Assembly: GCA_003331585.1 (NCBI GenBank)
Contig: QOPG01000005.1
Span: 1-64,000 of the forward strand
Direction of reading: 5' to 3'
From: Gammaproteobacteria bacterium
GTDB taxonomy: Bacteria > Pseudomonadota > Gammaproteobacteria > Steroidobacterales > Woeseiaceae
Length of the DNA stretch: 64,000 nt
The translations under genes were made by a program, and so were the position numbers. Under the pieces are notes generated by a model. The model saw only the letters and a list, made by a program, of their open reading frames with translations, was not told the origin of the DNA and did not search any database. Below, piece by piece: positions 41,297-45,770 of this stretch (position 1 is the stretch's first letter; each line of letters begins with the position of its first letter).

Positions 41297-42013
41297 TCAT
41301 GAGTGATGATGTTCACTAATATCTTTCATCTTTTCGTCAATCCAAAACTTTACATCGTCAATAACATCTTTCGGTGCTAGATCGCATGTTTCTATAGGCT
41401 TTCCTATACAAAATCTTATTGTACCTGGTTTCTTTTGCAGGGTGCCACTCTTCCAAAAATCTTCTGCATTATGAGCAACAGGCACAATACAAACGCCCGC
41501 TTCTCTGGCTAATGCAGCGCCACTGATACCATATCTTTTTGTTTCGCCAGGCATCATTCTTGTTCCTTCTGGAAATATTGTGATCCATATTCCTTGCTTT
41601 AATCGTTCTTTTCCTTGTCTTATAACTTGAGTGACTGCACTTCTTCCGCTTTTTCTATCAATCGAAATTGCTTTAAGGTTTTTTAATGCGAGCCCAAAAA
41701 TTGGTATCCAATTTAATTCTTTCTTAACAATCCATGTTTGTTGAGGAAATACAACAAGCTGAGCATAAGCCTCAAAAACACTCGAATGTCTAATCATAAT
41801 AACACTTGGAGTTTTTGGGATATTTTCAACGCCCTCCAATTTAAACTTAAGGCCACAGATTTTAGATCCAGCCCATATCATTCCCGAACCCCAACTTCGT
41901 GCAATTTTGAATTTGGATGAATAAGTATTAGGAAGAATAACGACTAACAGACTCGCAATAAGAACAGAACAATAAAAATAAATTTGAAATATTAATGATT
42001 TTATCAATATCAC
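41297..42013 (-). CDS. 1-acyl-sn-glycerol-3-phosphate acyltransferase family (PlsC-like)
   Basis: IRHSSVFEAYAQ (HX4-type motif region), IFPEGTRMMPGE; adjacent to gyrB as in pseudomonads. Confidence 0.88.
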   Translation of the reverse strand: MILIKSLIFQIYFYCSVLIASLLVVILPNTYSSKFKIARSWGSGMIWAGSKICGLKFKLEGVENIPKTPSVIMIRHSSVFEAYAQLVVFPQQTWIVKKELNWIPIFGLALKNLKAISIDRKSGRSAVTQVIRQGKERLKQGIWITIFPEGTRMMPGETKRYGISGAALAREAGVCIVPVAHNAEDFWKSGTLQKKPGTIRFCIGKPIETCDLAPKDVIDDVKFWIDEKMKDISEHHHS

Positions 42014-43431
42014 TATATTGTTTTTGCTTCTATATAGTTTCTAAAATATGCAGGGATGTCATCTAATTTCATTCTGCTTTGTTTCATTGTATCTCTGTCT
42101 CTAATTGTCACACTTTGATCATCTAAGGTTTCAAAATCTATTGTTATACAAAGAGGCGTTCCAATTTCATCATGCTTACGATAACTTTTACCTATATTAC
42201 CTGTATTTTCGAATATAACTCTACCTAGTTTTTGTTGTTGTAAGGTTGATTTCAGGGCTAACGCTTTTTGAACAAGATCATCGTTATTTCTTTTTAGTGG
42301 AATGACTGCTGCTTTAATTGGTGCAAGATGAGGCTTAAATGCTAGGACAATTCTTTCTTTTCCATTATCAAGTTTCTCCTTTTTATATGACTCATTCAAA
42401 ATTGCCAATACTCCGCGATCGACTCCTGCAGATGGCTCAATGACAAACGGTATTTCCCATTTCTTTGTCTCTTTATTTTGGATTGCAAGCCTGCTGTTTG
42501 AGTTCTTATTGTTCATTACGTTGGAATGTATTTTGATGTTTTCTTGATCTTTAGTGTGAGAGCCAAGATCAAAGTCTGTTCTGTTTGCAATACCCTCTAG
42601 TTCTTCTAGTCCATGAGGAAACTTATACATGATATCGACCGTAGCTTTTGAATAATGAGCTAATTCGTCATCTGGGACATAAAGAATTTCCATATTTTTT
42701 TTGCTTACACCTTGATCTATCCACCACTGTATCCTTAGGTTAGTCCATGTCTTATGCCACTCTTCATCGGAACCTTCTATAACAAAAAACTCAAGCTCCA
42801 TTTGCTCAAATTCTCTGACTCTAAATATAAAATTTCTTGGAGTAATTTCATTTCTAAAAGCCTTACCAATTTGTGCAATACCAAATGGCAAATGATGTGG
42901 AGTTGAATCCAAAACATTTTTGAAATTTACAAATATTTGCTGCGCTGTTTCTGGCCTTAGGTAAGCAAATGAACTACCATCATCAATTGGCCCCATGGTT
43001 GTTTTGAACATTAGATTAAATTGACGAGGTTCTGTTAAATCTTCTTTTTTGCAATAATCTGGAACTTGATCCGCTCTAAACCTTTCACCGCAGGATTTAC
43101 AATCAACCATTGGATCAGAAAATGTGTCTTCATGCCCTGATTGTTTCAGCACTTCGGGGCTGGTTAATATAGCAGCATCTAAGCCTTCAATGTCGTCTCT
43201 TTCGTAAACCATTGAACTCCACCAAGATTGTTTTAGATTATTTTTAAGCTCTGTGCCAAGAGGACCGTAATCATATAAGCCTTGAAGGCCTCCATATATC
43301 TCATTTGACTGAAATATAAATCCTCTTCTTTTGCAAAGAGCAACCAATTCATCCATTGTTTTTGCTGTCATATTCGAACCACTTTTTTCTCCATTATAGC
43401 TCGCATTTAAAAAGTTAAATAGCTTTGACAT
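42013..43431 (-). CDS. glyS: single-chain (alpha2-type) glycyl-tRNA synthetase; start 43431 or 43371
   Basis: [78 protein letters not shown]. Class II GlyRS of the undivided type, not GlyQ/GlyS. Confidence 0.95.
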
Positions 43432-43549
43432 AATTTGTCGTAACTAATTTACGTATAAAATAGAGATAAAAAATTTTTTTTAAAAAAAATCCTTTTTTTT
43501 GCAATTGTGAATTGATCAAATAATAATTTATTAGTATGATCAATCTGAT

Positions 43550-43660
43550 GGTGTAATTCGTACAACCTGCAAAAAAATTTTGGTTTCTAAACCAATTTTG
43601 AGACGCAAGTAAGCGGAAGCTGAAGAAACGGAGTCGTTTATCTCAAGAGTCTATCTTCTA
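43550..43660 (+). ncRNA. candidate glutamine riboswitch (glnA / Downstream-peptide family) in the glnII leader
   Basis: TTCGT (43557-43561) pairs with ACGGA (43628-43632) as P1; internal hairpin TTGGTTT/AAACCAA; core CGCAAGTAAG (43604-43613) - AGC/GGAA/GCT P3 hairpin - CTGAAGAAACGGA, matching the GGAAGUAAG...CUGAAGnAACG core of glutamine riboswitches as recalled. Confidence 0.68.
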
Positions 43661-43713
43661 TTGCCAGTTATAAACTAAATACTTTAATCGATGTAAATCG
43701 AACGGAGAGCAAT

Positions 43714-44682
43714 ATGAAAAAATTAGAATACATATGGTTAGATGGTTATAAACCTGAACCTAACTTAAGAAGTAAAGTAAAAGTTACAGACAGCACCCCC
43801 CCAGATTGGTCATTTGATGGCTCATCAACTCAACAAGCTGAAGGCGGAAGCTCAGACTGTATTATTAGGCCTGTCAATGAATATATAGGCCCAAGAAATT
43901 CCGATAATCTGATTATGTGCGAGGTATTATCTCCAGATAAATCACCACACCCATCAAACAAAAGAGATGCTTGTGCAGGAATTTCAGATGATTGGTGGTT
44001 TGGGTTTGAGCAAGAATTTTTCTTTACCAATCCTGAGGATGGCACAATTCTTGGTTGGGAGGATGGCACTCCCAGGCCACAAGGAGAATACTATTGCAGC
44101 GTTGGAACACGAAATGTTAAGGCACGAGAAGTATCAGAAGCTCATATGGATGCCTGTCTGGAAGCTGGCATACAAATAACAGGAACAAATGCTGAAGTTG
44201 CACTAGGCCAATGGGAGTATTGTGTTTTAGGAAAAGGCGTAAAAGGTGCTGACGACCTCTGGGTGAGTCGCTATCTTTTACATTTGATCGCAGAAGAATA
44301 TGGAATTTCTGTAAATCTCCATCCGAAACCACAAAAAGGTGATTGGAATGGTTCTGGCATGCATACTAATTTTTCCAACAGCCAAATGCGAGATTCTGGG
44401 ACCGAAGAACTGATGACTAGCATGTGTGAAAAACTAGGAGCAGTGCACAAAGAAGGGATAGAAAATTATGGCTCAGACAATGATATGCGATTGACAGGAC
44501 AACATGAAACACAAGATATTGATACCTTCTCTTATGGTGTGAGCGATAGAGGCGCCAGTATTAGAATACCAATATATACCGTTGAAAATAATTGGAATGG
44601 CTATTTAGAGGATAGAAGACCGGCATCAAATGCTGATCCTTATAAAATAATTTCGCATATAGTTAGTACTTTAACTAAATAA
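43714..44682 (+). CDS. glnII: glutamine synthetase, eukaryotic-type (GSII)
   Basis: LEYIWLDGYKPEPNLRSKVKV; PPDWSFDGSSTQQAEGGSSDCIIRPV; FGFEQEFFF; WNGSGMHTNFS; GASIRIP; 322 aa. Confidence 0.95.
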   Translation: MKKLEYIWLDGYKPEPNLRSKVKVTDSTPPDWSFDGSSTQQAEGGSSDCIIRPVNEYIGPRNSDNLIMCEVLSPDKSPHPSNKRDACAGISDDWWFGFEQEFFFTNPEDGTILGWEDGTPRPQGEYYCSVGTRNVKAREVSEAHMDACLEAGIQITGTNAEVALGQWEYCVLGKGVKGADDLWVSRYLLHLIAEEYGISVNLHPKPQKGDWNGSGMHTNFSNSQMRDSGTEELMTSMCEKLGAVHKEGIENYGSDNDMRLTGQHETQDIDTFSYGVSDRGASIRIPIYTVENNWNGYLEDRRPASNADPYKIISHIVSTLTK

Positions 44683-44695
44683 CTATGGACTAAAT

Positions 44696-44724
44696 AAGGG
44701 CTTCTTTATGAAGCCCTTTTATTC
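44696..44724. terminator. bidirectional rho-independent terminator between glnII and pyrD
   Basis: AAGGGCTTC-tttat-GAAGCCCTT followed by ttattc on +; preceded by A-rich sequence. Confidence 0.8.
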
Positions 44725-45770
44725 TTCTTTAGTATGTTTAATATAATAGAAGGCCCGTTGATTATTAATCCTGAATAAATTTGCACTACATTGGCACCAG
44801 CATTAATCTTGGACTCATAATCATTTCTTGTTAAAACGCCCCCAACGCCAATAATAGGAATGGTTTGAGAAAGACTTCTTATATAAGAAACAGCTTCATT
44901 TGATTTATTATGTAAAGGTGAACCAGAAACTCCGCCATTATAAGCATGATATTTCTTTTGTTTTAGTAGCGTTTTGTCTACCGTTGTATTTGTTGCAATA
45001 ACCCCTTCTAAAGATGAATTAATAATCTTATCTACTAGGTATTTTAGCGTTTCTTTCGTTTCATCTGGAGAAACCTTTATAAATATTGGTATGCTTATTT
45101 TTAATTTTTTTATTTCAATATTTATTTTTTCTATGAGTTCATCCATATTTTTTGAGCTATGAAGATCTCTCAGATTTTTTGTGTTTGGGGAAGATATATT
45201 TACTGTAATGTAGTCAGCAAATTTATGTACTTTTCTTATGCAAATTAGATAGTCTTCAATCCTGTTTTTTTCCTTTGATTGTTTGTTCGCACCAATATTT
45301 ACACCAACAATTCCCTTGTATTTTTTTTGTTTGAGATTTTTTACAAGGTAATCAACACCTTTATTATTAAATCCTAATCTATTTATAATTGCTAACTCAT
45401 CTCTCACGCGAAATACTCTTGGTTTTTTATTGCCAGATTGCGGCAGTGGTGTAACTGTACCAATTTCCAAAAACCCAAAACCGAGAGCTCCAAGACAATC
45501 AATATAATCCCCATTTTTGTCTAATCCTGCAGCAGTGCCTAACTTATTTGACAGTTTCATTCCAACAAAATTCACATTAGTTGTTTTGGGCTGAGGAAAT
45601 AATAACTTTAATAGCCCCGTTTTGTATGCTATATCCAAGCATCTTAATGCTAGAACGTGAGAAAATTCTGGGGGGAATAATTTAATAAATTTTAAAAAAA
45701 TATTCAAAAGATAAATCACCTGTATAATTATATTTAATTCTACAGGACCACTGATATAAACATCTATCAA
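44706..45770 (-). CDS. pyrD: dihydroorotate dehydrogenase (quinone), class 2; start may be internal
   Basis: NKLGTAAGLDKNGDYIDCLGALGFGFLEIGTVTPLPQSGNKKPRVFR; GVIATNTTVDK; GGVSGSPLHNKS; IIGVGGV. Confidence 0.96.
   Translation of the reverse strand: MIDVYISGPVELNIIIQVIYLLNIFLKFIKLFPPEFSHVLALRCLDIAYKTGLLKLLFPQPKTTNVNFVGMKLSNKLGTAAGLDKNGDYIDCLGALGFGFLEIGTVTPLPQSGNKKPRVFRVRDELAIINRLGFNNKGVDYLVKNLKQKKYKGIVGVNIGANKQSKEKNRIEDYLICIRKVHKFADYITVNISSPNTKNLRDLHSSKNMDELIEKINIEIKKLKISIPIFIKVSPDETKETLKYLVDKIINSSLEGVIATNTTVDKTLLKQKKYHAYNGGVSGSPLHNKSNEAVSYIRSLSQTIPIIGVGGVLTRNDYESKINAGANVVQIYSGLIINGPSIILNILKKNKRAS

Follow-up and report, generated by a model that had tools for sequence, protein, structure and literature searches.

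A glutamine synthetase leader from a gammaproteobacterium very probably holds a naturally circularly permuted glutamine-I aptamer

The DNA analysed here, a stretch of 64,000 nucleotides from a gammaproteobacterial contig that we call the window, very probably contains a naturally circularly permuted glutamine-I riboswitch aptamer in the leader of its glnII gene, at 43596-43648. The junction elements of the canonical aptamer are all present, with P2b placed first and P1a-A-P2a last. Where the canonical RNA runs CGUUC-A-P2a-loop-P2b-CGGAAGUA-P3-GAAG-GAACG-C, the window reads P2b(TGAGA)-CGCAAGTA-P3-GAAG-P1b(AAACG)-GAGT-P1a(CGTTT)-A-P2a(TCTCA), or, as RNA, UGAGA-CGCAAGUA-AGC GGAA GCU-GAAG-AAACG-GAGU-CGUUU-A-UCUCA. 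Such a rotation would turn P1 into a closed hairpin and P2 into the basal stem, moving the chain ends to P2, while the three-way junction, the E-loop beside P3 and the ligand pocket are predicted to be kept, with P1 closed by a GAGU loop. Computed support covers the permuted order, intact P1, P2 and P3 helices, a linchpin pair compensated in 12 of 14 rows, a distribution restricted to leaders of glutamine synthetase and TonB-receptor genes, and a fixed promoter.

A sequence-only reading had earlier proposed a glutamine riboswitch at this locus, and its core stands. The strings it quoted are all found within 43557-43632 (TTCGT at 43557-43561, TTGGTTTctAAACCAA at 43580-43595, CGCAAGTAAG at 43604-43613, AGC-GGAA-GCT at 43612-43621 and CTGAAGAAACGGA at 43620-43632), the E-loop AGUA/GAA, P3 and GAAG do precede a glutamine synthetase gene, and that gene is intact and of the GlnII type, with an NCBIfam gln_syn_GlnII score of 357 bits that lies under the curated cut-off of 500. 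The fold proposed at that time does not hold, and the 3' part of the aptamer, 43635-43648, had gone unrecognised. The best Rfam match, at 43580-43634, is indeed the suggested Glutamine family RF01739, yet its 24.9 bits (E 0.0024 over the whole genome) fall below the gathering cut-off of 35, as do the 24.7 bits of the relative L034. Glutamine-II (RF01704), the other family suggested, has no match in the window at E<=10, and membership of it was dropped. The resemblance of the window element to RF01739 is more than chance, and the same element recurs in relatives of the window.

Table 1. Features of the glnII leader, in window positions; nucleotide numbers follow the glutamine-I crystal constructs (PMC5393176, PMC6698751)
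Feature	Position	Strand	Basis or remark
Promoter: -35 TTGATC 43512-43517, 17-nt spacer, -10 TATGAT 43535-43540	43512-43540	+	
Putative P0, 5' strand (TGGTGTAAT)	43549-43557	+	complementary to ATTGCCAG 43660-43667; weak in window
Upstream hairpin TTGGTTTctAAACCAA, outside aptamer	43580-43595	+	in relatives with other loops (TTGGTTCAAAACC)
P2b (TTTTGAGA), canonical 3' strand of P2, here predicted 5' end of aptamer	43596-43603	+	pairs with P2a
Core strand CGCAAGUA: C21, G22 (ligand contact), C23 (linchpin), E-loop AGUA	43604-43611	+	invariant in all copies
P3 hairpin AGC-GGAA-GCU	43612-43621	+	all cells paired; A-U/G-U variation within family
GAAG, 3' side of E-loop motif	43622-43625	+	invariant
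P1b AAACG, includes C58 and G59	43626-43630	+	paired with P1a in every row
P1 loop GAGU, first nucleotide G60, partner of C23	43631-43634	+	C23-G60 in 12/14 distinct rows
P1a CGUUU, C1 and G2 of ligand site, moved to 3' side	43635-43639	+	R2 match
J1/2 adenosine	43640	+	single A as in canonical CGUUC-A-UC
P2a UCUCA(AGA), canonical 5' strand of P2, here predicted 3' end	43641-43648	+	R2 match, P2 pairing
Proposed switching (anti-aptamer) strand: conserved UCUUC, able to pair with core GAAGA	43654-43658	+	function inferred
Putative P0, 3' strand (AUUGCCAG)	43660-43667	+	complementarity to 5' leader strand
Shine-Dalgarno GGAGAG	43704-43709	+	sequence and spacing to ATG 43714
glnII, eukaryotic-type glutamine synthetase, controlled gene	43714-44682	+	NCBIfam match

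The permuted order was examined with two covariance models, R1, made from 17 canonical aptamers of bacterial genomes in native order, and R2, made from the same sequences permuted in silico with three random loop letters. Neither holds a single variant sequence, so that circularity is avoided in the permutation test; the 4-nt loop length of R2 was borrowed from the variant. R2 matches the window without gaps at 43599-43645, over its full length and with no broken or non-standard pair, at 52.0 bits (E 1.1e-10), against 21.7 bits for R1 and the native order (P1a-P2-core-P3-GAAG-P1b) that defines RF01739. The remaining permuted copies score 47.5-52.9 bits with R2 and 14-30 bits with R1, and single canonical controls show the reverse (R1/R2 bits of 76.6/44.7 for L052, 74.8/36.9 for L288 and 63.2/26.2 for L325). 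R2 also picks up tandem canonical arrays (L305 at 62.9 and L296 at 53.5 bits), because the permuted order occurs in their middle part. In the permuted leaders the canonical elements stand in rotated order and one copy suffices for them: 12 of the 14 loci are single-copy, and the native order has no partner strands there.

The pairing within the family is consistent with this arrangement. In the permuted connectivity, 94-100% of cells are paired across the P1/P2/P3 junction, and within the family the permuted pairs are formed in 96% of cells versus 32-50% in slid controls. P2, which had been taken for degenerate, is intact, its completing strand lying 3' of the core, and the same is true of P1. 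Covariation among leaders had been put forward as a check and was borne out in part: the sixth P2 pair varies (U-A, G-U, A-U) and stays paired throughout, whereas no change is seen in the P1 pairs or the inner five of P2, because the family is young and spans two genera. Within-family covariation is carried mainly by one P2 pair. Between variant and canonical rows, double changes are seen at the P1 junction pair (canonical G-C, variant A-U) and at 23-60 (canonical G-C, variant C-G); other double changes in the mixed alignment come mostly from the canonical rows, where they are expected. RNAalifold recovered the permuted P1 and P2 unprompted and proposed CGC/GCG instead of P3, and the E-loop AGUA/GAA columns flanking P3 are invariant at the sequence level. 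In energy folding with no ligand or E-loop terms, the aptamer of single-copy leaders is not the minimum and lies some 2-3 kcal/mol above it.

In the bound glutamine-I structure G23 is paired with C60 (PMC5393176), and in glutamine-II the same place is occupied by C19:G41 (PMC6698751). Among the permuted rows, 23-60 is C-G in 12 of 14, as opposed to the canonical G-C, and C.A in two; both copies of L037 have A60, and there the pair is broken. The single core change from CGG to CGC that had been reported is present but is probably not damage: C23, facing G60, would be half of a swapped long-range pair, and we read it as a compensated swap of the linchpin from G23-C60 to C23-G60, as in glutamine-II. 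If so, it is natural compensatory evidence for the structure of the glutamine site. Glutamine-I contacts its ligand through C1:G59, the N4 of C58 and the O2' of G22 (PMC6698751), and C1-G59, G2-C58 and G22 are invariant across the permuted copies; L-glutamine (and Mg2+) would then be bound in the P1 groove together with these nucleotides.

Applied to 346 genomes of the window's order (the genomes used are drafts, the window's own being 81% complete), R2 finds 16 copies at 14 loci in 10 species, confined to genus g1 (family f1) and genus g24 (family f13). All lie upstream of glnII (six loci), type-I glnA (two) or a TonB-dependent receptor gene (six, a weak assignment made from the N-terminal part), and a class-wide sample of 369 genomes brought in nothing further but tandem canonical arrays, from G159. 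The promoter has a TTGA-type -35, 17-nt spacing and a TATNAT -10 in 14 of the 14 leaders listed. Among relatives of the window glnII, taken from genome contigs, four marine gammaproteobacteria (L033-L036) and L037 share the leader core, L036 and L037 having it twice in tandem, and the counterpart of the upstream hairpin in L033 has one mismatch in its arm. The genus mates G006 and G008 have the same leader before type-I glnA, and the leader is common to two distantly related types of glutamine synthetase gene. R2 has no match near the type-I glnA of G003 and G007 or at the other marine GlnII loci L038, L040-L043, L045 and L050; among the viral-contig matches listed, the aptamer patterns are in native order, mostly in tandem arrays, with no permuted single copy. 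As a separate observation, GlnII-type glutamine synthetases are encoded on 48 IMG/VR viral contigs (L113-L160), at 46-67% identity, and several of them are close to the marine bacterial clade. In f13 (L351, L354, L355, L357, L365 and L366), the same promoter and permuted leader precede the TonB-dependent receptor gene, a locus that adjoins glyS and a phosphoribosyltransferase-like gene in L499 and an NCS2-type permease in L500; these leaders perhaps form a small regulon for the uptake of nitrogen-rich compounds.

Gammaproteobacterial carriage had been called unusual, and a 2018 review restricts glutamine riboswitches to cyanobacteria (PMC6316151). Canonical switches are common in a SAR86-like order, however, exceeding the Rfam cut-off in 33 of the 61 genomes of the order of G159 (streamlined, apparently SAR86), so such carriage is no surprise; the SAR86 genome L052 has a canonical glutamine-I aptamer before a homologous gene. 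In L339-L348 and L350 (SAR86-like families f177 and f269), glutamine-I-like aptamers in native order, with a strongly conserved P3 insertion of about 100 nt, precede genes for small proteins with YRG repeats that resemble DUF4278; the aptamers score a sub-threshold or borderline 24-35 bits with Rfam, and the sub-threshold matches were rejected as permuted copies on account of their native order and large P3 insertion.

Other readings of the leader deserve consideration. The canonical order could be saved by pairing a 5' P1 strand, TTCGT (43557-43561), with ACGGA (43628-43632), accepting a degenerate P2 and assigning the 3' CGTTT to an expression-platform decoy. RF01739 does match the window, the genus g1 TTCGT could pair with ACGGA, and SAR86-like canonical leaders have a decoy-like AACG-CNNN-CGTTAAAC 3' of the aptamer. 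We nonetheless consider this reading improbable. The TTCGT/ACGGA helix was rejected as P1: f13 has TTCCT, which gives a C.C mismatch, and the second copies of tandem leaders have no counterpart of TTCGT at all. Native-order alignments of the variant leaders break P1 and P2 pairs, and the SAR86-like decoys lack an A-P2a complementary to P2b, with tandem arrays as the canonical exceptions, whereas 16 of 16 permuted copies have one.

Some variant riboswitches have acquired new ligands, and C23 and G60 differ from glutamine-I while one target is a TonB-dependent receptor rather than a glutamine gene, so the same permuted fold might sense another nitrogen signal. This seems to us very unlikely, given that the contact nucleotides are unchanged, that glutamine-II binds glutamine with the same C-G linchpin, and that the targets include six glnII and two glnA genes. 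The very strong conservation of the leader, promoter and flanks included, would also fit a protein-binding site or other non-riboswitch structure that resembles an aptamer by chance or descent, but we give this hardly any credence: the permuted canonical model matches over its full length at an E of 1e-10, and the J1/2 A, the UC/GA start of P2, the E-loop and P3 equal their canonical counterparts one by one.

How a permuted glutamine-I aptamer would control expression can be outlined. All leaders retain the UCUUC strand, which in tandem pairs follows the first copy as well, so its partner should lie inside the unit, where GAAGA is the evident match, and GAAGA:UCUUC pairing appears in unconstrained folds of several leaders. 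Without glutamine, UCUUC would pair with the core GAAGA and open the aptamer; ligand binding would stabilise P1, P2 and the E-loop and free the UCUUC strand. An outer helix, P0, may be added, formed by GTTGGT/ACCAAC in f13 and GTTTG/CAAAC in L366; for GUUGGU/ACCAAC, matched against mismatched duplex energies give modest support (permutation p=0.011). Two anti-Shine-Dalgarno candidates were rejected, UCUUC (matched no better than mismatched, p 0.98) and the 5' TTCNT (p 0.22), and forcing the aptamer in energy folding left Shine-Dalgarno access unchanged in single-copy leaders. Because inspection by eye shows no obvious intrinsic terminator between the aptamer and the start codon, control is probably exerted at translation. 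In G006 and G008 (L013 840-930) the leader starts a short upstream ORF, about 29 codons long, whose overlap with the start of glnA suggests translational coupling. High glutamine would probably lower glutamine synthetase; glutamine turns genes on in the known cyanobacterial switches, but OFF is the more sensible guess for glutamine synthetase itself. Family f54 (L289, L292, L325-L338) has another expression platform: there a conserved hairpin, CACCAAAC...GTTTGGTG, comes after the canonical glutamine-I aptamer.

Canonical switches of related marine bacteria are the probable ancestors of the permuted form. The GlnII proteins encoded behind permuted leaders group in a single clade, next to those of SAR86 and Marinimicrobia, and the SAR86-like switches precede homologous glutamine synthetase genes (checked for glnII in L052 and L296). 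In canonical leaders like those of L052 and L296 the aptamer is followed by AACG-CNNN-CGTT, which has the loop geometry and length of the permuted P1, and CTTCTA is nearby; unlike the permuted leaders they keep the native order, and their downstream CGTT is followed by no strand matching P2b. More widely, AACG-CNN(N)-CGTTAAAC...GTTTAACTTC is found downstream of the switches of L052, L291, L296, L299, L305 and L322 and is probably their expression platform. Possible sources are tandem aptamers, whose middle is already permuted, or a downstream CGTT strand competing for P1b, and either tandem duplication with loss of the ends or promotion of a decoy strand could be the origin. Our tentative suggestion, about which we have considerable doubt, is that this is the first natural riboswitch permutation and that it came about when a decoy strand in an ancestral expression platform took over P1b, acquired a P2 strand and was incorporated into the aptamer; if true, switch platform and aptamer can trade roles in evolution. 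In genus g1 the gene beside glyS is glnA without a detected switch in G003 and G007, glnA behind the permuted switch in G006, and glnII behind that switch in the window, a case of gene replacement in one chromosomal slot. In the window (42013-45770) glnII stands between glyS and pyrD, as against a type-I glnA beside glyS in L491, L492 and L505.

Set against known systems, the element shares with glutamine-I the three-way junction, the E-loop AGUA/GAA beside P3, the J1/2 A, the UC/GA start of P2, contacts C1, G2, G22, C58 and G59, nitrogen target genes and tandem copies; it differs in its rotated order, GAGU-closed P1, basal P2, C23-G60 linchpin, A-U at the P1 junction and a score below the Rfam cut-off. 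Glutamine-II likewise closes its glutamine site with a long-range C-G pair (CGC ... AACGG), but it contains a pseudoknot and lacks the P3 junction. Natural circular permutations listed in 2023 comprise hammerhead types I-III, twister P1/P3/P5, 5S rRNA and group II introns (PMC10085705). As in those RNAs, the core would be kept and the chain ends shifted to another helix; unlike them, the window element is a riboswitch aptamer, a class absent from that list. No permuted natural riboswitch was found in the literature searched, which covers few subscription papers and preprints, with the list of known permutations running to 2023. If the permutation is confirmed, Rfam-style native-order models miss such riboswitches and it would pay to search systematically with permuted ones, a metabolite aptamer can be rearranged to report ligand binding through a different helix, living intermediates exist in related plankton as tandem arrays and decoy strands, and the setting in which this happened is the glutamine synthetase leaders of some small-genome marine bacteria.
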